Assembly: GCF_000368785.1 (NCBI RefSeq)
Contig: NZ_KB849690.1
Location: forward strand, 144,966-208,965
From: Acinetobacter towneri DSM 14962 = CIP 107472
GTDB taxonomy: Bacteria > Pseudomonadota > Gammaproteobacteria > Pseudomonadales > Moraxellaceae
Length of the DNA stretch: 64,000 bases
Direction of reading: 5' to 3'
In this document: in pieces, positions 7,542 to 18,644 of the stretch
How positions within the stretch are numbered: position 1 is the first letter of the stretch
How the letters are laid out: every line of letters starts with the position of its first letter
Position numbers and translations under genes: made by a program
Notes under the pieces: generated by a model
Seen by the model: the letters and a program-made list of their open reading frames with translations, nothing else
What the model was told of the DNA's origin: nothing
Databases searched by the model: none

Positions 7542-7870
7542 TGAACCGTACCGGGTTTGTCGGAGACTTTTTTATTTAAGTTAGGCCACCTGACCTAACG
7601 GGTTAATCTTATCATAGTACATTGCTTCAAACTCAAAAGGCGATACATAACCCAGTGCACTGTGTACACGCTTTTTATTGAACCAATCTACCCAGTTTAG
7701 TGTCGCAAGTTATACATCTGCTAAACCTTGCCAATCTGCTTTTAAATATTCAATCACCTCTGTTTTGTATAAGCCATTCACCGTTTCAGCCAGAGCATTA
7801 TCGTATGAATCACCAGTTGTACCGACTGATGCTCGTAAATTTGCAGCTTCTAAACGATGAAGCATATTCA
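7542..7870 (-). mobile_element. IS3-family fragment (3' end), same element as at 1-374
   Basis: The 26-nt terminus at 7542-7567 is the reverse complement of 349-374. Inside it, on the minus strand, is the last part of an OrfB integrase. The other half of the element has been deleted: IS similarity fades between about 7857 and 7870, where the HNH nuclease frame begins. Confidence 0.8.
7581..7862 (-). pseudogene. IS3-family OrfB (DDE integrase) C-terminal fragment with internal stop
   Basis: The frame reads LEAANLRASVGTTGDSYDNA, LAETVNGLYKTEVIEYLKAD, WQGLADV, stop, LATLNWVDWFNKKRVHSALG, YVSPFEFEAMYYDKINPLGQ and VA, ending in TAA at 7581-7583. GDSYDNALAE and the WVDWFNKKRVHSALGY block are hallmarks of the IS3 OrfB C-terminus. 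The in-frame TAA at 7710-7712 probably replaced a CAA glutamine codon. The catalytic N-terminal half is absent, so this copy is dead. Confidence 0.85.
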
Positions 7871-8867
7871 GCAGATATTGCAGTCAGGGACTTTTACTTC
7901 GACATATAAGTTTGCTTTGCTGATAAGTATCACGCGTCTGGCGATTGAACAGGGGCAAGATACCGGTGCTGCCTTGCATTTGGACTATCAGGATATTGCG
8001 GAAAAGTTTATTGACCTGTACTGGAAACAGTCTCTGCCGTTTCAGTTTAACCAGTATGAGCCTTTTACTATTCATCAAAGCACTGGTAAGCAGGCAAAGA
8101 TCATCAGTGAAATTCAGAATGCACAGCAACAATTCAAGACCTTGGCCGCGTTGAGAAAGGATGTATTTTACTGGAACAGGCTAAAGCGAACAGTTGCGAC
8201 AACGGTAAAGCAAATGCCGGTAGTATATTTGCAGAATCTGAATGGTCAAACGGTAGAATTTCTCTATTGCCTTGAAGACTCCAAACAGTCCCTCAGGCTT
8301 TTACCCAAAGTGATGTATTGCTTAAGACAATTCAGTGAAATTATTGAAGAGCTGTGCCAAAAGCGCTGGATTGATTTTGTCCGACTGAACAAGCAGAACC
8401 TAGTTGTACTTGATGGCTTGCCTGACCTAGATGAATTCATGTTTGCTCCAAGTCGTAATCAATTGGGGCAGGTCGCGGACTTCTTAATCGACTTACAGCA
8501 ATGCCAGTGTTTTTACTGTGGCAAAAGCCTGAAAAACTCAAAATATGCCGTGGATCATTTTATTCCCTGGTCTCTATATCCTGCCGATACCGGACATAAT
8601 TTTGTCCTGGCAGATGATAAATGTAATTCACAGAAAAGTAATTATCTAGCGTCCGAGCAATTCCTAGATCAATGGAGAGAACGTAATCATCTGCATGATC
8701 AGGCGATTAGTCGGGAGATTTCGCAACTCGGTTTTTTGACCGATCTGCGGCGTTCACATCGGGTTGCAGACTGGGCCTATCAGCAGGCGATTGAGCATGA
8801 GTATTTAGTCTGGTTGGGGGGCAAAGATAAACAGATATTGGCTCATCCTATATCTGGTGTCTTTTGA
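7857..8867 (+). CDS. HNH endonuclease domain protein
   Basis: This protein is up to 336 aa. The C-terminal half contains CFYCGKSL, then AVDHFIPWSLYP, then HNFVLADDKCNSQKSNYL, a classical HNH (beta-beta-alpha metal) nuclease with a supporting CxxC. The N-terminal half begins TYKFALLISITRLAIEQG, like other HNH proteins of this kind that open with '(S/T)YKFALL'. The available ATG at 7857 is at the edge of an IS3 fragment, so the native first residues may have been replaced or lost. It precedes hsdM by about 300 bp on the same strand, so a defence role is plausible but inferred. Confidence 0.75.
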   Translation: MKHIQQILQSGTFTSTYKFALLISITRLAIEQGQDTGAALHLDYQDIAEKFIDLYWKQSLPFQFNQYEPFTIHQSTGKQAKIISEIQNAQQQFKTLAALRKDVFYWNRLKRTVATTVKQMPVVYLQNLNGQTVEFLYCLEDSKQSLRLLPKVMYCLRQFSEIIEELCQKRWIDFVRLNKQNLVVLDGLPDLDEFMFAPSRNQLGQVADFLIDLQQCQCFYCGKSLKNSKYAVDHFIPWSLYPADTGHNFVLADDKCNSQKSNYLASEQFLDQWRERNHLHDQAISREISQLGFLTDLRRSHRVADWAYQQAIEHEYLVWLGGKDKQILAHPISGVF

Positions 8868-9184
8868 GACGGTTATTCTTTGCAGAGATTCTGTTATCCA
8901 AAGACCAATATTTTCAAGAACAAATTGAATATTCAGCAAGATAGTATTCTATAGACAGCTGAATTAGAGCTTTCAGCCCTTACAGACTTTTAACTGGAGG
9001 CCTTCATTCTCACAATATGCTGCTACAAAATTTAGAATATTCACCTGTTTGGAGCTTGAGTTGACAGATCACTTGGCTTGAGCACGACAAATAATGTCCT
9101 TTTCCACCTTTTTACTGCTGTATGATTTAGAATTTTAGGTAAAATCATTTGATTAATGATTTACTTATTTGGACTTCCATAACA

Positions 9185-10753
9185 ATGACCCAAGTACAAC
9201 TGCAACAATTACAAAAACAACTTTGGAATATTGCCAATACTTTGCGCGGTACCATGGGCGCCGATGAATTCCGTGATTACATTCTGGGTTTTATTTTCTT
9301 TAAATATTTATCAGAAAAGTCGGTGAACTTTGCCAACGAATTGCTCGATGGCGAAGACCTCAGCTTTTTAGAATTAGATGAAAATAATCCTGAGCATGTG
9401 CCATACATCGAAGAAATTAAAAAGAATGCCATTGCCGAAGTCGGTTATGCGCTCACACCCAAACAGCTATTCCATACCTTAGCCGAGCGTGGTCGTCAGG
9501 GCGAATTCATTTTGGATGATTTAACTTCGACCTTAAAATCAATTGAACAAAGCACTTTAGGCACCGACTCTGCCGATGACTTTGCCAACCTGTTTGAAGA
9601 TTTGGATCTAAACTCGACCAAGCTTGGCAATAATGCCAGTGACCGTAATGCACTGGTGGCGAAAGTCCTGAGTCATTTAGATGATATTGATTTTGATATT
9701 AGTAATACCGAAGCCGATGTACTGGGTGATGCTTACGAATACCTGATTGGTGAGTTTGCCTCAGGCGCGGGCAAAAAAGCGGGGGAATTCTATACCCCGC
9801 AAACCGTATCGACTTTACTGGCGAAGATTGTCACCCAAGGCAAAGACCGTTTACGTTCAGTCTATGACCCGACTTGCGGTTCAGGTTCGTTGTTGCTACG
9901 GGTAAAACGTGAAGTAAAAGATGTCGATATGATTTACGGTCAGGAAATGAACCGTACCACCTACAACTTGGCACGCATGAACATGATTCTGCATGATGTG
10001 CATTTTGCCAAGTTCGACATCAAGCAGGAAAATACTTTAACCCGTCCGCAACATTTAGATAAAAAGTTTGATGCGGTGGTGGCGAATCCGCCATTTTCTG
10101 CAAAATGGTCTGCCGATCCGTTATTTTTACAAGATGAACGTTTTGCTGCGTATGGCAAACTGGCGCCAAGTTCTAAAGCCGATATGGCTTTTGTACAGCA
10201 CATGCTGTATCAACTGGATGACAACGGCACGATGGCGGTGGTGTTACCGCATGGCGTATTGTTCCGTGGTTCGAGTGAGGGCGTAATTCGTCAGTATTTA
10301 ATTGAACAGTTGAACGTGGTGGATGCGATTATTGGTTTACCTGCCAATATTTTCTATGGTACTTCAATTCCGACCTGTATTTTGGTGTTGAAAAAAAACC
10401 GCGAGCAGAGCGGCAATATTCTGTTTATTGATGCCAGCAATGATTTTGAAAAGCAGAAGAACCAAAACAAGTTATTGCCTGAGCATTTGGATAAGATTGT
10501 TGCGGCATTTGAAAAGCGTGAAAATATTGAAAAATATGCGCATGTGGCGACTTTGCAAGAAGTCAAAGATAACGATTACAACCTGAATATTCCGCGTTAT
10601 GTGGATACCTTTGAAGCGGAAGCCGAGATTGATTTAGATGCGATTGCAAAACAGCTTCAAGCTTTGGAACAAGACAGCCAAAAGACCGATGCCATCATTG
10701 CAGATTTTTGTAATGAGCTAGGTATTGTTTCGCCTTTTGCGGAGGTGAAGTAA
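9185..10753 (+). CDS. hsdM: type I restriction-modification system, modification subunit HsdM
   Basis: This is the N6-adenine DNA methyltransferase subunit of a type I R-M complex. The N-terminal helical HsdM domain (residues 5-140, LWNIANTLRGTMGADEFRDY) precedes the SAM-binding motif DPTCGSGSLLL (228 onward) and catalytic motif NPPF (301-304). I choose ATG 9185 (MTQVQLQQLQKQLWNIAN) by family alignment over the upstream ATG at 9149. It is 522 aa, normal for the family. It is the first gene of a four-gene operon; its stop overlaps the hsdS start as TAATG. Both methylation and restriction complexes need this subunit. Confidence 0.95.
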   Translation: MTQVQLQQLQKQLWNIANTLRGTMGADEFRDYILGFIFFKYLSEKSVNFANELLDGEDLSFLELDENNPEHVPYIEEIKKNAIAEVGYALTPKQLFHTLAERGRQGEFILDDLTSTLKSIEQSTLGTDSADDFANLFEDLDLNSTKLGNNASDRNALVAKVLSHLDDIDFDISNTEADVLGDAYEYLIGEFASGAGKKAGEFYTPQTVSTLLAKIVTQGKDRLRSVYDPTCGSGSLLLRVKREVKDVDMIYGQEMNRTTYNLARMNMILHDVHFAKFDIKQENTLTRPQHLDKKFDAVVANPPFSAKWSADPLFLQDERFAAYGKLAPSSKADMAFVQHMLYQLDDNGTMAVVLPHGVLFRGSSEGVIRQYLIEQLNVVDAIIGLPANIFYGTSIPTCILVLKKNREQSGNILFIDASNDFEKQKNQNKLLPEHLDKIVAAFEKRENIEKYAHVATLQEVKDNDYNLNIPRYVDTFEAEAEIDLDAIAKQLQALEQDSQKTDAIIADFCNELGIVSPFAEVK

Positions 10754-11907
10754 TGGCTGCGCCTAAGTTAAGATTTAAAGAATTTGATGGGGATTGGTCT
10801 GCGCAAAAATATAAAGATGTACTTACTATTAAATATGGTAAAGATCATAAATTACTTGAGGATGGAGAAATACCTGTTTACGGCACAGGCGGTGTGATGC
10901 GTTATGTCAATCAATACCTATACGATGGTGAAAGTATTCTTATCGGTCGTAAAGGTACAATTGATCAACCAAAATATGTAAATGAAAAATTTTGGACAGT
11001 AGATACTCTTTTTTATTCAGAAATTAAGCAGAATATTTATCCTTTATTCATTTATCAACACGCTTTGCAAGTGAACTGGCTTGGATTAAATGAAGCAACT
11101 GGTGTGCCTAGTTTAAATACAACCTCGATTAATAATGTTGATATTTATCTCCCATCCAAAGAAGAACAAACCAAAATCGCCTCTTTCCTTTCTGCCGTGG
11201 ATGAAAAGATTAACCAACTCACGCAAAAACATGAGCTGCTGAGCCAATATAAACAAGGCATGATGCAAAAGCTGTTTAGTCAGCAGATTCGTTTTAAAGC
11301 GGATGATGGTCGTGAGTTTGGGGAGTGGGAAAAAGCAAAAACAGGTGATATTACAGAAACAATTTTTGGCTACCCTTTTGATAGCAAAGAAATGGTTGAA
11401 GATAATAATGGTATTCCATTAATGCGAGGAATTAATATTGGTGAGCGTCATATTAGGCATTCTCATGAATTAGATCGTTTTTTTCTTAAAAATACGTCCA
11501 AGTTAAAAAAATATTTTGTCAAAGTGAATGATATTGTTCTTAGTATGGATGGTTCAAAAGTTGGACGTAACTCTGCTTTTGTTACAGAAAAAGATGCTGG
11601 CTCTTTACTGGTTCAGCGTGTTTGTATTTTGCGTGAAAAAGAAAATACGAATATTCAATATGTATATCAATGGGTCATCTCAAAAGAATTTCATAGATAT
11701 GTAGATCAAGTCAAAACCAGTTCTGGAATTCCTCATATCAGTGGTAAGCAAATTCAAGATTATGAAATTGGTTATCCTTGTCTAGAAGAACAAACCAAAA
11801 TCGCTAACTTCTTATCTGCCATCGACCAAAAAATTGAAGTCGTGGTACAGCAAATTGAACAAGCCAAGCAGTGGAAAAAAGGCTTGTTGCAGCAGATGTT
11901 TGTGTAG
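10753..11907 (+). CDS. hsdS: type I restriction-modification system, specificity subunit HsdS
   Basis: This DNA-recognition subunit has two target-recognition domains (TRDs) of about 140 residues each, and each is followed by a conserved helical spacer. The first spacer contains PSKEEQTKIASFLSAVDEKI, the second CLEEQTKIANFLSAIDQKIE. The near-repeat is also visible in the DNA. The two TRDs set a bipartite target that cannot be read from sequence. The gene is 384 aa and starts in the hsdM stop (TAATG), implying translational coupling. The second TRD region is noticeably AT-rich, as is common for exchanged HsdS modules. Confidence 0.94.
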   Translation: MAAPKLRFKEFDGDWSAQKYKDVLTIKYGKDHKLLEDGEIPVYGTGGVMRYVNQYLYDGESILIGRKGTIDQPKYVNEKFWTVDTLFYSEIKQNIYPLFIYQHALQVNWLGLNEATGVPSLNTTSINNVDIYLPSKEEQTKIASFLSAVDEKINQLTQKHELLSQYKQGMMQKLFSQQIRFKADDGREFGEWEKAKTGDITETIFGYPFDSKEMVEDNNGIPLMRGINIGERHIRHSHELDRFFLKNTSKLKKYFVKVNDIVLSMDGSKVGRNSAFVTEKDAGSLLVQRVCILREKENTNIQYVYQWVISKEFHRYVDQVKTSSGIPHISGKQIQDYEIGYPCLEEQTKIANFLSAIDQKIEVVVQQIEQAKQWKKGLLQQMFV

Positions 11908-11915
11908 GGGGAGAC

Positions 11916-12368
11916 ATGAAACTATACAGAGGGATAGGTAAAACTAAATTTGAAAATGATGATAAAAAACTTTTAGTAAAAGGTAGAAGAAACCAAATTG
12001 AATTACTTGCCGGATCAGAAGAATATCATGCAGGGAATGATATTTTTCGTATCGGTGCAACTGATCAATATAATGCAGCATATTTACACAATTACGATTC
12101 TCAGATATCAAATACAGCCTTTATTTCATGTACTACAAATTATGAAGTAGCTAAAAAATTTGCAACTCATGGAGGATATTCCAATGGTTATATTTTTGAG
12201 CTTTCGATTCCAGATGAAATAACTAATGTCATCGTAATAGATGATCATAACAAAGCAGCAACTAATCCTCATGAGTTTGAAGTTCTATTAGATTTAACAA
12301 ATTATGATTATACAGTTCCTCAAGAATGGATTGTAAATATAGAAGAAATTACAGGTAATCTAACGTGA
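11916..12368 (+). CDS. ADP-ribosyltransferase-like protein embedded in hsd operon
   Basis: The product is 150 aa from ATG 11916, with GGGGAGA as ribosome site 1 bp before it; it starts 8 bp after hsdS. I see an R-S-E pattern typical of arginine-type ADP-ribosyltransferase folds: R5 in LYRGIG, a central FISCTTNYEVAKKFA (residues 69-83; S71, T73, then the usual helix), and an E-x-E at 120-122 in NPHEFEVLLD. The strand order (YRG; F-[IL]-S-x-T; G-Y-I-F-E-L; E-x-E-V-L; hydrophobic C-terminal strand WIVNIEEI) agrees with that fold. Its stop overlaps the hsdR GTG start as GTGA, so it is translationally coupled to the R-M system. It is AT-rich relative to hsdM and hsdR. The family is inferred from motifs only; a non-enzymatic relative is possible. 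No signal peptide is present. Confidence 0.6.
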   Translation: MKLYRGIGKTKFENDDKKLLVKGRRNQIELLAGSEEYHAGNDIFRIGATDQYNAAYLHNYDSQISNTAFISCTTNYEVAKKFATHGGYSNGYIFELSIPDEITNVIVIDDHNKAATNPHEFEVLLDLTNYDYTVPQEWIVNIEEITGNLT

Positions 12369-15241
12369 ATATCCAAAGCGAATATCAACTTGAAAATGAA
12401 CTCATTGTACAGCTTAGAACATTAGGCTACTCATCAGTGACGATTAAAGATGAATCGCAACTACTGTCCAACCTAAAAATCCAAATCGAACGCGCCAACG
12501 GAATTGCGCCACTTTCGACAACTGAATGGAAGCAAGTCATCAGCTTTTTAAACACAGGAACCGTATTTGAACGGGCCAAGAATCTGCGTGATCTGTTCCC
12601 GGTCAAATTTGATGATGGTTCAAGTAAGCACATCTTTTTTCTGTCTGATGATCCTAGTAAGAACATCTATCAAGTCACCAATCAGATCACCATTGACCAT
12701 CGTGACTACAATGGCCGCACCAGTCGTTTTGATGTAACTCTACTGGTCAACGGCCTGCCTTTGGTACAGATTGAACTGAAAAAGCGTGGCATGGAGATTG
12801 CCGAAGCCTTTAATCAGACCCAGCGCTATACTCGTGAAGCCTATTGGGCCGGACAGGGCCTGTTTGGCTTTGTCCAGTTATTTGTCATCAGTAATGGCGC
12901 GAATACCCGTTACTACTCTAACGGCACCACTGGCATCGAGTTCGCCTTTCCTTGGGCCGATGTCAGCAACAAACACATCAATGAAATTGTCGACTTTGCC
13001 GATACTTTTTTGAATCAGCAGCATCTGACCCAGATGCTGACCCAATACATGGTGTTGCTAGAGACCACAAAATCTTTGATGGTACTGCGTCCCTACCAAA
13101 TCTATGCGGTGCAGAAGATTGTGCAGCATGTACAAAGCTCGGATCAGAACGGCTATATCTGGCATACCACCGGTTCAGGCAAAACCCTGACTTCATTTAA
13201 AGCCAGTCAAATCATCATGCAAATGCCGGACGTGGAAAAAGTCCTGTTCGTGGTGGATCGTAACGACCTCGATACGCAGACCTCAAGAGAATTCAATGCT
13301 TTTAAAGCTGAGAGCGTGGACAGCACCGATAACACGTCTACCTTGGTTAAACAGCTTGACCAACGTCATGACAAATTGATTGTCACCACCATCCAAAAAC
13401 TCAATCGGGCCATCAGCACCGACCGTTATTTAGAATCCATTGATTATCTCAAAAATAAAAAAGTGGTATTTATCTTTGATGAATGTCATCGCAGTCAATT
13501 TGGTGACACCCATCAGAACATCAAAAAGTTCTTCAGCAATGCACAGATGTTTGGCTTTACGGGTACGCCCATTTTTGAAAAAAATAGCCAAAGCAAAGCA
13601 GGTTTAAAACTGACGACAGATTACCTGTTTAATGAATGTTTGCATAAGTACGTGATTGTTGACGCCATCCGTGACCGTAACGTATTGCAGTTCCAGATTG
13701 ATTATCGTGGCAAATACACGGTCAAAGGCATGGCGACTAACGAAAGTTATGATGAAGATGTAGAAGGCATCGATACCAAAGAACTGTATGACAATCCGCA
13801 ACGACTGGAAATGATTGCCCGCTACATTGTCAATATCCACGATACCAAAACCCGTAATCGTGAATTCACGGCTATGTTCTGTGTCAGTTCAGTCGAGACA
13901 CTGACTCAATATTACGACATCTTTGAAAAGGTGCAGGCTGAAAAACAAATTGAAGATGAAGCACAAGGTCGGATATTTAAGCCTTTGACCATTGCCACCA
14001 TCTTTTCCTATGCGGCAAATGAGGCTGTACCGACTGATGACTTAACTGGCTTGATTCACGAAGAAGCCGCAGATATTCCAACTCAGGTCAACTCATCCAG
14101 TCGGGATAAGCTAGATCGCTACATTGCCAATTACAACCGACAGTTCAAAACTAACTACAATTCTGGTGATCAATTTTATGCGTACTACCGCGACATTGCA
14201 CAGCGCGTAAAAAACAGACAGATTGATATTCTAATCGTGGTCAATATGTTCCTCACGGGCTTTGACTCTAAGCCGCTAAATACCTTGTATGTCGATAAAA
14301 ACCTAAAATATCATGGCTTGATTCAAGCATTCTCACGCACCAACCGTGTCTACAACGATAAAAAACCATTTGGTAATATCATCTGTTTCCGTAACCTGAA
14401 ACGCGCCACAGATGAAGCGCTGGCGCTATTTTCCAATAAAGAAACGACCAAGATCGTCCTTGTTCCAAGCTATGCGGAAATTGAACAGGATTACCAAGCA
14501 GCGGTGAGCAAACTGTTTGCCTTAACGCCCAATTACCAATCAGTCGATGATCTTGTTACTGAAGAACAGCAACTGGAATTTATTAAAGCTTTCCGTGAAG
14601 TGATGCGCTACAACGCGCAATTACAAACTTTTATTGAGTACGATCAAGACCAAACACAACTGGATAAGCAGCACTTTGCGAATTTCGCCTCTAAGTATGC
14701 TGACCTATGCCGTGCCGTTAGAAAGACCACCAAGAAAGACAAAGTGTCGGTATTGGATGATGTCGATTTTCAGCTGGATTTACTGCACAGTGACCGCATT
14801 AATGTGGGTTATATCATCAACCTGCTACAACTGGTCGTGGACACAGACTCAGAGGACAAGCGTCAGAAGTACCAAGCGCAAATTTACGATTTAATCAGTA
14901 GCGATATTAGCTTGCACGATAAGCAAGACCTGATTCAAAAATTCATTGAAGAAAACATGCCGAAGATGATCAATGGTCAAAGCGTCCAAACGGCTTTTGC
15001 TCAGTTCTGGGATGCTGAAAAAGAACAGGCCTATCAGCATCTTTGTAAAGAAGAAAACCTGAAACCAGAAGCGATGAAGCAGGTTCTGGAGCATTATGAG
15101 TTCACCAAACGCCTACCACGTAAAGAAGAGTTGAAGGACTTACCAAACTATAAAGTGAAGCTGTTTGAGCGGGAGAACGTGTTTAGCAATTTGCTGGTCA
15201 AGACACGGAAACTGATTGAAAAATTTTATGTGGGGTTTTAA
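12365..15241 (+). CDS. hsdR: type I restriction-modification system, restriction/translocase subunit HsdR
   Basis: This is the 958-aa motor and nuclease subunit. The N-terminal PD-(D/E)xK-type nuclease shows D123 in RFDVTLLVNG and E137/K139 in QIELKKRG. The SF2 helicase core follows: Walker A TTGSGKT (about 268), DECHR (372-376) and FGFTGTPI, then motif-like VVNMFLTGFDSK and QAFSRTNR in the second RecA domain, then the C-terminal HsdM/S-contact region. The start codon is GTG at 12365, overlapping the upstream stop. With hsdM and hsdS intact, the whole system looks functional. A strong terminator follows. Confidence 0.95.
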   Translation: MNIQSEYQLENELIVQLRTLGYSSVTIKDESQLLSNLKIQIERANGIAPLSTTEWKQVISFLNTGTVFERAKNLRDLFPVKFDDGSSKHIFFLSDDPSKNIYQVTNQITIDHRDYNGRTSRFDVTLLVNGLPLVQIELKKRGMEIAEAFNQTQRYTREAYWAGQGLFGFVQLFVISNGANTRYYSNGTTGIEFAFPWADVSNKHINEIVDFADTFLNQQHLTQMLTQYMVLLETTKSLMVLRPYQIYAVQKIVQHVQSSDQNGYIWHTTGSGKTLTSFKASQIIMQMPDVEKVLFVVDRNDLDTQTSREFNAFKAESVDSTDNTSTLVKQLDQRHDKLIVTTIQKLNRAISTDRYLESIDYLKNKKVVFIFDECHRSQFGDTHQNIKKFFSNAQMFGFTGTPIFEKNSQSKAGLKLTTDYLFNECLHKYVIVDAIRDRNVLQFQIDYRGKYTVKGMATNESYDEDVEGIDTKELYDNPQRLEMIARYIVNIHDTKTRNREFTAMFCVSSVETLTQYYDIFEKVQAEKQIEDEAQGRIFKPLTIATIFSYAANEAVPTDDLTGLIHEEAADIPTQVNSSSRDKLDRYIANYNRQFKTNYNSGDQFYAYYRDIAQRVKNRQIDILIVVNMFLTGFDSKPLNTLYVDKNLKYHGLIQAFSRTNRVYNDKKPFGNIICFRNLKRATDEALALFSNKETTKIVLVPSYAEIEQDYQAAVSKLFALTPNYQSVDDLVTEEQQLEFIKAFREVMRYNAQLQTFIEYDQDQTQLDKQHFANFASKYADLCRAVRKTTKKDKVSVLDDVDFQLDLLHSDRINVGYIINLLQLVVDTDSEDKRQKYQAQIYDLISSDISLHDKQDLIQKFIEENMPKMINGQSVQTAFAQFWDAEKEQAYQHLCKEENLKPEAMKQVLEHYEFTKRLPRKEELKDLPNYKVKLFERENVFSNLLVKTRKLIEKFYVGF

Positions 15242-15841: not shown

Positions 15842-16588
15842 TTATCCGCTTATTCGTCGGTCATCCCAATAACACGGTACTATAATCAGATTGTTTTCAT
15901 GTAATCGTGACCATAATCGGACACCTAAATCCCGCTGCATATTTTGGACTGTGAAATTGGAAATCAGCAGGGTAGATTTCATATTGTCATAACGACTATA
16001 TAAGACCTTATGCACCATCTCTAGGCGTTTTTCATGCCGGTCATGCAGGCCATATTCATCAATCACCAATAAATCAAAACTGGAGAAATGGTCGATGACT
16101 TCTTTCTCAGAGCGTGAAGTATCTGACCAAGTATCCATCATTTTTTGAGCAATTTCTGCACTGGTATAGTAGCGTGCAGATTTTGTACTGTTATGCAGAA
16201 TGTTACGAATAATTGATGCACTCAGATGGGTTTTACCTGTACCTGGTGTACCAATCATCAACATGTTCGGGTTGTGGTCAGAAATAATCTGTTGTGCAAA
16301 GGCCTGACATAGCTTGATGGTATTGTCTTGTGCAGGGCATGCAACTACATAATTCTTGAAGCCACGATCCAGGTAGCGTTTATTGAGCCCTGAATTTTTA
16401 ATTTTCTGTTGTAGTAATCGCTGTTGCAGTTCGTCCTCATAGGTTGCATGTGACGACTGGACAGTTTCTTTGGCACACAATTTACAGAGTCTGTGACCCG
16501 CAATTTCCATTAGGGGTATATGATGGGTAGGGCAAGCTGTTTCCGTTGTTTCTGCGCGAAACTGGAGTGTTTTAAGCATGGTATTCAT
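15842..16588 (-). CDS. DnaC-like replicative helicase loader / phage replication ATPase
   Basis: This 248-aa AAA+ protein has Walker A GTPGTGKT (113-120), Walker B LLVIDEYGL and sensor LLISNF. An N-terminal zinc-binding segment with Cys19, Cys35 and Cys38 precedes the ATPase. In the DnaC/DnaI family such proteins load DnaB helicase at a phage or plasmid origin. It begins 10 bp after the DUF1376 gene, so the pair looks like a replication module. It belongs to the small integrated element at tRNA-Gly rather than to the chromosome's own replication machinery. It is related to IstB, but the zinc domain and context favour DnaC. Confidence 0.82.
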   Translation of the reverse strand: MNTMLKTLQFRAETTETACPTHHIPLMEIAGHRLCKLCAKETVQSSHATYEDELQQRLLQQKIKNSGLNKRYLDRGFKNYVVACPAQDNTIKLCQAFAQQIISDHNPNMLMIGTPGTGKTHLSASIIRNILHNSTKSARYYTSAEIAQKMMDTWSDTSRSEKEVIDHFSSFDLLVIDEYGLHDRHEKRLEMVHKVLYSRYDNMKSTLLISNFTVQNMQRDLGVRLWSRLHENNLIIVPCYWDDRRISG

Positions 16589-16598
16589 GACTGATCTC

Positions 16599-17153
16599 CT
16601 AAATCCACTTTGAATTTTCTAAAAAACTCTCATTTTTTTCTTCAAAATTTGAAGATGAAGATGAAGATGAAGATGAAGATGAAGATGAAGATGAAGATGA
16701 AGGGCATGGTTCAAGCATGACTTGAGTAATACTCGGGCTCTTCTCAGGAGCTGCTTGAGTATTTACTTTTCGTTGCTTGGTTGATGCTTGAGCATTACTA
16801 GCGGATTTCCCCCAACGTGCCTGAGCTGCATTTTTAGCTTTATCAGATTTCATTTGCTGATTTTGCAATGCCTGGCTTTTTAAACTGCTTAAAAAATTTG
16901 AATGAATCTGCTCAGATTCGATTTCAAACAATTCCAGGGCCATTAGCGTATTCAACAAAGTTTTAGCCTTGGTATGTTGCGATAATTTTGTGATGCTACA
17001 TACAGTAGCTAGGTCATGAGGAATGGCACCATTTTTCCAGAAATCCATCATTAACAGTAGGGTTGCACCAATTTGTTCTGCCGTCATTCGTGCAAATTTT
17101 GCCTGTAGGTCGCCAATATAGAGTGGCATCCAAATTGAAATATCTTTATGCAT
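16599..17153 (-). CDS. DUF1376 phage-type protein with poly-serine tract
   Basis: The 184-aa product starts MHKDISIWMPLYIGDLQAKF, with a helical winged-helix-like region (residues 5-90, MTAEQIGATLLLMMDFW) typical of DUF1376 proteins in prophage replication modules. A lysine-rich middle (KAKNAAQARWGKS) and a glutamine/proline-rich linker follow, then about 17 consecutive serines encoded by a hexanucleotide repeat, then a short charged tail. In phages this family sits before a DnaC-like loader, as here, so an origin-binding role is likely. The serine tract is unusual. Confidence 0.75.
   Translation of the reverse strand: MHKDISIWMPLYIGDLQAKFARMTAEQIGATLLLMMDFWKNGAIPHDLATVCSITKLSQHTKAKTLLNTLMALELFEIESEQIHSNFLSSLKSQALQNQQMKSDKAKNAAQARWGKSASNAQASTKQRKVNTQAAPEKSPSITQVMLEPCPSSSSSSSSSSSSSSSSSNFEEKNESFLENSKWI
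16651..16702. repeat. hexanucleotide microsatellite (GAAGAT)n
   Basis: Eight full GAAGAT units plus GAAG run in uninterrupted tandem, reading TCATCT/TCTTCA on the coding strand. Each unit adds or removes two serines from the DUF1376 protein. Because the unit is 6 bp, slippage changes protein length without shifting the frame. Confidence 0.95.
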
Positions 17154-17218
17154 GTGTTCACCTTTTTATAGGTATAAAGGGGCTGAGGTCATCAATTAGA
17201 TGACCTTATATGTTTGTT

Positions 17219-17470
17219 TTATGAGTGAGCGAGACTCATTAAGCGGAGACGGGCCTGTTGAGCCAAGTCATCGTAATGAGCTTGCCCTTCATCCAGCATT
17301 CGCTGTAGCCAAAGTCTCAATGCTTGGTGGTCATCGAAGCATTTATTGATTTCCAGCAAAAAGGCCAGATTGTGCAGTTTGGGAATGTGTAGCTCATGGA
17401 TTAATTCACGAGCGACCATATCTGCTTCTGGGCTAACGACTACGCCGCCAAAGAAAGCTTTACTATTCAT
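17219..17470 (-). CDS. small hypothetical protein of the integrated element
   Basis: This 83-aa protein starts at ATG 17470 (MNSKAFFGGVVVSPEADMVA), overlapping the integrase stop by 8 bp. The rest is helical and charged, ending in ARLRLMSLAHS. I do not recognise a domain. There is no signal peptide or membrane segment. Its place between integrase and replication genes in one transcription unit suggests an accessory role in the element. A longer frame reaching 17671 overlaps the integrase coding region and is not credible. Confidence 0.6.
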   Translation of the reverse strand: MNSKAFFGGVVVSPEADMVARELIHELHIPKLHNLAFLLEINKCFDDHQALRLWLQRMLDEGQAHYDDLAQQARLRLMSLAHS

Positions 17471-18644
17471 GTGCAAGCTCCTCTGTAGTGAGTCTCTCCA
17501 GCATGGCTTCAAAAGCACTGCCATCGCGACGGGTAACATTCGGAATGTAGCGGCTATAGACCCGGAACAACATTTCAGTGGTTGAATGCCCCAATTGGCG
17601 AGCGACCCATTCTGGATTTTCACCTGCCGCCAGCCAGAGCGTTGCTGCTGTATGACGTGTCTGATAAGCACGACGAGGCGTTAATCCTAAAAAGCGCAGG
17701 ATAGGGTGCCATACACGCTTATTAACTAAACGGTAGTCTAGAGGACCGCCATCACGGTTACAGAAGACGAAGTCCGATTTTCCGTTGTTGAGGCTTTTCT
17801 GTTGCAGAAAGGCTTGGTATACCCGGTCATTCATCTGGATCGTGCGGTCAGAACCATACGTTTTGGTTCCACCAAGAACACCATTCACTAACGCTTCACG
17901 GATATGGATCTCACGACGTTGCAAGTCGATATTTTTCCATTGCAGACCATCGATTTCACTGGTACGCATACCTGTGAAAAAGCGAATGGTGTAATAAGGC
18001 CTAAAGTCCTCACGCACCGCAGTGAGAATTTTATGCACCTCTTCCAGAGAAAAAGGTGTGACTTCGATTTTACTTTCCTTCAGATTGTTTATATTTTTAT
18101 ACGGCGACTCAAAATCGTATCGTTCTGCCGCATCATTCAGTATCATACGTAAAGGCGTCATGATTTGATTGATCCTCGATGCTTTCAGACTTGTTTGATC
18201 TTTTCCGTGTGTCACTTTGGCGAGGGAAGCACGGAAGTTCAGCAAGTCTGACTTCTTAATTTTTGAGAGAACCTGATTACCAAAAGCGGGGATCAAATAG
18301 TTTTTGATTACAATTGAAACCTTTTGTTGATATGAATCTCTCCATTCAATTTGTTTCTGTTTAAACCACAATTCAGTAAACTCTTTAAAAAGAGGAACCT
18401 TGGTTTGTACAGCGATTTGCTGACTTCTTTTTTCCTTAAACTCCTCAACACGTTTACTTTTTGGAAAATACTTTTCGTATTCAAAAGTTCCCAAAGTAAT
18501 TTCAGCTTGAAGCTGCTCGAGACGTTTTTTTAAAATTCGGCGATTATAGGCATTGTCTTCAAGATTGGTTGTCTCTCTGCAACGGATGCCCATGTAGCGA
18601 AAATCGGCAATGAGTTTGCCACTTCTTTCCCGGATGGTAGCCAT
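17463..18644 (-). CDS. site-specific tyrosine recombinase (integrase)
   Basis: This 393-aa phage-type integrase has an N-terminal arm-binding/DUF3596-like start (MATIRERSGKLIADFRYMGI), a SAM-like core-binding domain (about 85-180), and a catalytic domain with Arg227 (FFTGMRTSEIDGLQW), Arg330 (QTRHTAAT), His353 (LGHSTTEM) and nucleophile Tyr363 (RVYSRY). All active-site residues are present. It lies about 900 bp from the 3' end of tRNA-Gly, a common integration target. The gene order on the minus strand is excisionase-like, integrase, small gene, DUF1376, DnaC. It probably still catalyses integration or excision if the partner att site survives. Confidence 0.9.
   Translation of the reverse strand: MATIRERSGKLIADFRYMGIRCRETTNLEDNAYNRRILKKRLEQLQAEITLGTFEYEKYFPKSKRVEEFKEKRSQQIAVQTKVPLFKEFTELWFKQKQIEWRDSYQQKVSIVIKNYLIPAFGNQVLSKIKKSDLLNFRASLAKVTHGKDQTSLKASRINQIMTPLRMILNDAAERYDFESPYKNINNLKESKIEVTPFSLEEVHKILTAVREDFRPYYTIRFFTGMRTSEIDGLQWKNIDLQRREIHIREALVNGVLGGTKTYGSDRTIQMNDRVYQAFLQQKSLNNGKSDFVFCNRDGGPLDYRLVNKRVWHPILRFLGLTPRRAYQTRHTAATLWLAAGENPEWVARQLGHSTTEMLFRVYSRYIPNVTRRDGSAFEAMLERLTTEELAHE

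Follow-up and report, generated by a model that had tools for sequence, protein, structure and literature searches.

Why would a restriction operon carry a gene for a putative ADP-ribosyltransferase between its specificity and restriction genes? The question is raised by a 64,000-nucleotide stretch of Acinetobacter towneri DSM 14962 = CIP 107472 (assembly GCF_000368785.1, contig NZ_KB849690.1, positions 144,966 to 208,965; hereafter the window), in which a 150-residue reading frame separates hsdS from hsdR in a type I restriction-modification (R-M) operon. The original prediction had taken this frame for an ADP-ribosyltransferase gene, placed as the anticodon nuclease PrrC is placed in its own locus. 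Our analysis points to a predicted NarE-family ADP-ribosyltransferase seated in an interchangeable slot of a type IC operon; whether it acts there as a second layer of phage defence is, in our judgement, an even call.

The family assignment comes from profile, sequence and predicted structure. The protein matches the Pfam NarE profile (PF21641) with 48.2 bits against a curated cut-off of 27 (E 1.6e-12, residues 3-124) and the Protein Data Bank (PDB) sequence of NarE from Neisseria meningitidis (NMB1343, PDB 2kxi) with E 3.3e-11 over residues 3-147, matches that rule out a chance reading frame. No other Pfam family is matched at E ≤ 1, and DarT membership is ruled out by the lack of a DarT domain (PF14487) match at the same threshold. 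PHROGs gave weak matches (E 0.058 and 0.14). The structure is predicted with a pLDDT of 85.5, and the comparison of folds that had been proposed alongside the original prediction led, with Foldseek, to 2kxi (E 3.4e-5, TM 0.45, 29% identity), which argues for a predicted ADP-ribosyltransferase fold. Among the 50 VIA-align rows listed for the same model, 37 are ADP-ribosylating toxins by title and 11 are Tpt1/KptA enzymes; 2kxi is absent from these 50.

The catalytic residues were assessed in an alignment (A2) of the window protein with 88 of 120 listed proteins (121 were found), near-duplicates and short or weak rows having been dropped. LYRGIG, FISCTTNYEVAKKFA and HEFEV are all present in the 150-residue protein, as had been read from its sequence. 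S71, T73 and E122 are kept in 89/89 rows and R5 in all 85 rows with a letter at that position, so the proposed R-S-E series holds for these four residues. It does not hold for E120, since position 120 is E in 17 rows, D in 68 and N in four; accordingly the conserved glutamate is E122, with the E-x-E form to be read as a variant of this protein alone. The number of cysteines, of interest because NarE has an iron site, ranges from 0 to 5 per protein. R5 falls on R7 of NarE if the alignment, which starts at 3 to 5, has no early gap, and the account in PMC4440719 describes an R7K mutant of NarE as inactive. The protein would be capable of NAD glycohydrolysis or ADP-ribosyl transfer and, by analogy with NarE, the acceptor would be arginine. 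The likeness to NarE thus covers a near full-length sequence match, the predicted fold and the catalytic arginine; the two differ in setting, NarE having been studied for effects on human cells whereas the present enzyme, its activity predicted only, is embedded in an hsd operon.

The operon reads hsdM-hsdS-ADP-ribosyltransferase gene-hsdR, with the following parts:

9149..10753, plus strand: hsdM, N6-adenine methyltransferase subunit (Pfam N6_Mtase, 2e-112, and HsdM_N; TIGR00497 above cut-off)
10753..11907, plus strand: hsdS, specificity subunit (Pfam Methylase_S, 1.3e-33, in two stretches; junction comparison)
11908..11913, plus strand: GGGGAG, read in the sequence 5' of the ATG at 11916 and resembling a ribosome-binding site, its putative function
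11916..12368, plus strand: predicted NarE-family ADP-ribosyltransferase gene, 150 residues, the cargo of this locus (R5, S71-x-T73, E122; profile, PDB match, predicted fold)
12365..12368, plus strand: GTGA, read in the sequence, joining the ADP-ribosyltransferase stop and the hsdR start; would couple translation
12365..15241, plus strand: hsdR, EcoR124-type (type IC) restriction subunit (Pfam EcoR124_C, 7.9e-53, HSDR_N and SWI2_SNF2; TIGR00348)

The junctions are as originally described: the ATG at 11916 lies 8 bp beyond the hsdS stop (11907), and the TGA at 12366-12368 overlaps the hsdR GTG at 12365-12367, the two genes sharing 4 nt. The hsdM, hsdS and hsdR frames are uninterrupted and hold the expected domains (Pfam, NCBIfam); hsdM starts with TTG at 9149, and an in-frame ATG further in would give 522 residues. 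HsdR ends in an EcoR124 C-terminal domain, by which we assign the operon to type IC. Because a scan of the operon gave 15 promoter sites against 18.7 expected, no promoter of its own can be claimed for the enzyme gene, which is probably co-transcribed and translationally coupled with hsdR. Its GC content is 0.30, compared with 0.35 for hsdS and 0.42-0.43 for hsdM and hsdR.

To what extent is this position peculiar to the window? Across the genus, 117 of the 173 genomes searched contain an HsdR match of any strength. We compared the DNA upstream of hsdR in 40 related type IC loci from 36 genomes, namely 39 hsdR matches of at least 66% identity over nearly full length (three of which, in G022, G072 and G058, carry stops inside hsdR) and a partial second copy in the window's own genome; fragmented hsdR matches (G104, G174, G004 and others of smaller size) stand outside this set, as does anything below 66%. 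Matches to hsdM and hsdS precede hsdR in 40/40 loci, and the hsdS-hsdR interval varies from 41 to 5696 bp. Counting frames of at least 70 residues as cargo, 34 slots are occupied by one or more frames and six, of 41-129 bp, are empty. The second type IC locus of the same genome (G000:C37:1-3641, L077), cut by contig ends, has an empty slot with 129 bp between hsdS and hsdR.

The borders of this interval are sharp across the genus. Mean pairwise identity was calculated for the window and 39 loci, leaving out L054, where hsdS was matched in pieces and the resulting gap of 3904 is too large. It reaches 0.86 in the final 60 nt of hsdS, the conserved left border, drops to 0.29 at 20-80 nt past the hsdS stop and 0.34 at 80-20 nt before hsdR, and returns to 0.77 over hsdR nt 4-63, the first hsdR codons forming the conserved right border. 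In this type IC family, what lies between hsdS and hsdR is therefore an interchangeable cargo slot bounded by the hsdS stop and the hsdR start.

The cargo was classified with Pfam on one representative each of 19 of the 24 cargo clusters and with PADLOC on 10. Members of the HNH, DUF5655/PDC-S18, PDDEXK_4/PDC-S26, GIY-YIG/PDC-S14 or DUF559 families are found in 24 of the 34 occupied loci, or in 29 if an Abi_C-like family below the Pfam cut-off is counted too. Cargo ends close to the hsdR start elsewhere as well, with a 4-nt overlap in L058 and an end 4 nt before hsdR in L046. In the slot of G164 (L047:6718-8210), an IS200-type transposase and an IS605 OrfB-like protein stand ahead of HNH and DUF5655 cargo. 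Plasmid records matching the operon number 57, 54 of them from Acinetobacter; among the 40 such matches listed, feature names somewhere under the match include, in addition to the hsd genes, DUF5655, PD-(D/E)XK, GIY-YIG, abortive infection and hypothetical proteins. None of the 57 carries the enzyme, since a plasmid-wide search with the protein matched only two Neisseria gonorrhoeae records (29.5% identity).

The enzyme itself is rare. PF21641 is matched at E ≤ 0.001 in one of 175 genomes of the genus (the window's own), 2/369 of the class, 3/390 of the order and 3/398 of the phylum, in overlapping samples that each count this genome. In the Pseudomonas group (the genus of G789) there are matches in 20 of 298 genomes, two of them above the cut-off. 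Of the 18 below it (L084-L100, L004/L007), 15 lie in frames of 546-1664 residues, and L007, one weak match that was read, resembles an Rhs-type repeat protein, which suggests that these are NarE-like toxin tips. An out-of-frame hsdS tail precedes three of seven close relatives, so these three follow an hsdS gene; apart from the window, these three environmental relatives, at 95-96% identity, are the only members seen in a restriction setting. A protein of Acinetobacter harbinensis (P0006) is without the first 45 residues, including the catalytic arginine, which may reflect an incomplete gene or a misplaced start.

More distant relatives have other surroundings. Around nine other loci with distant members or a weak match, a search with the Hsd proteins of this operon over 5.8-16 kb per locus, able to reveal only nearby, related hsd genes, found no hsd homologue. 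L081 lies on a viral contig beside genes for Gam-like, exonuclease and nucleoid proteins, a layout shared by L006; L082 is likewise on a viral contig, and L101 has a terminase small subunit nearby; no phage evidence was seen at L005 and L078-L080 within the neighbourhood examined. The NarE-type family is thus often phage-associated. As a possible outcome against it, the original prediction had named homologues lying mostly outside restriction loci with another assigned function: the nine loci agree with the first part of that picture, but no other function is assigned there. A scan of genome contigs with the single protein gave 72 pattern matches, none confirmed, and one with alignment A3 gave three loci, none with an hsd homologue in the flank. 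Phage records held no match to the protein at E ≤ 0.01.

Several systems bear on how new this arrangement is. The assertion that R-M loci containing such a gene were undescribed proved too wide, because extra genes in type I operons are known (PrrC, Rlo, TgvAB, DarTG2), and DarTG2, an ADP-ribosyltransferase system, is placed by PMC12255303 between hsdS and hsdR in enteropathogenic Escherichia coli, at what its authors call a potential recombination hotspot. The likeness to DarTG2 is an ADP-ribosyltransferase in the same slot; DarT, however, acts on DNA and is paired with the antitoxin DarG, whereas here one gene stands without an adjacent antitoxin. PMC3874165 and PMC12707154 describe PrrC as embedded in the prr type IC locus, and PMC2610378 describes Rlo genes as extra genes inside type I operons. 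The comparison with PrrC in placement stands, as the gene lies inside a type IC operon (EcoR124_C in HsdR), the R-M class hosting PrrC. It does not extend to sequence: PrrC and RloC are ATPase-type anticodon nucleases, and no relation to the enzyme was found, NarE being the sole Pfam match. The GmrSD-like genes TgvAB and RloF are likewise embedded in type I clusters, RloF between hsdR and hsdS according to PMC11411939, in which TgvAB appears as modification-dependent restriction, in contrast to the predicted ADP-ribosylation here. The Rhs toxins TreTu and TreX (Xenorhabdus) are, by entry titles, toxin tips solved with immunity proteins; the gene here is a stand-alone 150-residue frame between hsdS and hsdR, lacking the delivery domain and the adjacent immunity gene of an Rhs effector. 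In the open-licence literature we found no NarE-family enzyme in this slot and no single-gene ADP-ribosyltransferase cargo lacking an antitoxin; neither NarE, R-M and ADP-ribosyltransferase nor ADP-ribosyltransferase, anti-phage and R-M operon were found together there. What is new here is the enzyme family in the slot and the absence of an adjacent antitoxin.

How, then, would the cell live with such an enzyme? Its neighbours are hsdS and hsdR, and neither an antitoxin or immunity gene nor a DarG macrodomain antitoxin adjoins it. No PF03747 hydrolase is matched in the genome at E ≤ 0.001; there are two macrodomain genes, one behind a DarT gene on another contig. In that DarTG-like pair (G000:C29, L102:811-2537) the macrodomain gene comes after a DarT gene that matches PF14487 at E 1.3e-52, and the genome accordingly holds two ADP-ribosyltransferase families, NarE-type and DarT. 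A bare catalytic domain that a genome retains ought to do no harm in the resting state, which may mean that its target is a phage protein, that it needs a trigger, or that the Hsd complex holds it.

We hypothesize that the enzyme forms a second layer of phage defence beside restriction: it would stay quiet until infection brings its target or trigger, and would then ADP-ribosylate a phage or host protein. This mode is preferred because the protein consists of a catalytic domain alone and has no neighbouring antitoxin gene, and an anti-phage effect is likely given the company it keeps in the slot. Several observations weigh against the proposal. The enzyme is absent from 40/40 related type IC loci; it is a single genomic copy in the slot, and its recurrence comes from the three environmental proteins. 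With nine loci free of hsd homologues, some of them prophage-like, the family is not dedicated to restriction operons. In five of the 34 occupied slots the cargo belongs to neither the nuclease nor the Abi-like families and consists of other genes only, and NCBIfam and PADLOC have no model matching the enzyme at E ≤ 1. Low identity is not unique to the slot either, as identity within hsdS itself is 0.34 a little further upstream, at -240 to -180 nt, which makes its conserved end a short island, and the low GC content of the slot gene is nearly matched by that of hsdS.

The strongest rival to infection-dependent defence, possible if tentative, is a guard of the PrrC kind, in which the intact Hsd complex binds and silences the enzyme until a phage anti-restriction protein frees it to modify a host target and stop growth. 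The operon is of type IC, the class that PMC2610378 links to PrrC, and PMC3874165 describes PrrC as kept in the type I complex until phage infection; the want of an adjacent antitoxin or a PF03747 hydrolase fits, and the GTGA coupling to hsdR would match the amounts of the two proteins. PrrC, however, has ABC ATPase motifs (PMC2610378) where this protein is a bare 150-residue catalytic domain, TgvAB, likewise embedded cargo, is reported as functional when made in E. coli (PMC11411939), and an Acinetobacter baylyi RloC, not linked to its hsd genes, is described as not silenced by an R-M protein (PMC3874168). The specific form, with the type IC Hsd complex itself serving as antitoxin to a bare NarE-type enzyme that is freed once phage disables restriction and then arrests the cell by protein ADP-ribosylation, is doubtful.

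The gene could also be a captured phage gene, prophage-borne for host take-over, anti-defence or superinfection exclusion, and recombined into the slot, functionally unconnected with restriction. Relatives in phage settings (L081 and, alike, L006; L082; L101), a GC content below that of hsdM and hsdR, though close to that of hsdS, and AcrIF11, which PMC12421852 presents as a phage ADP-ribosyltransferase used against defences, speak for such an origin. It is nonetheless unlikely: intact catalytic residues and the hsdS tail before three of seven close relatives indicate that the gene is kept in this position, slot cargo is mostly defence-like, and phage records lack the protein. Very improbable is an R-M regulator that would adjust restriction by ADP-ribosylating an Hsd subunit, for instance on establishment in a new host. 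The shared operon, the overlap with hsdR and the ADP-ribosylation of arginine in proteins and in itself described for NarE (PMC4440719) would suit it, but with the gene absent from all 40 related loci, such R-M systems do not need the enzyme.

The flanks of the operon hold further genes. Upstream of hsdM, an HNH endonuclease gene (7857-8867; PF13395, E 1.3e-7, with weak PtuB and PDC-M01B matches in PADLOC) may be one more defence gene. Downstream, beyond hsdR, the minus strand at 15842-18644 encodes an IstB-like ATPase, a DUF1376 protein containing a long stretch of serines, and a tyrosine integrase, perhaps the decayed remains of a phage or integrative element; a scan for direct repeats gave no obvious attachment repeat for this region.

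These results single out the interval between hsdS and hsdR in this type IC family as a site worth searching for more defence genes, and set an enzyme of the NarE family, whose named member is studied as a possible virulence enzyme, in a likely phage-defence setting. Should the Hsd complex prove to silence the enzyme, PrrC would be joined by another instance in which a restriction enzyme serves as antitoxin. An enzyme guarded by R-M in this way would also mean that the NarE family, although known from a human pathogen, belongs fundamentally to the conflict of bacteria with their phages.
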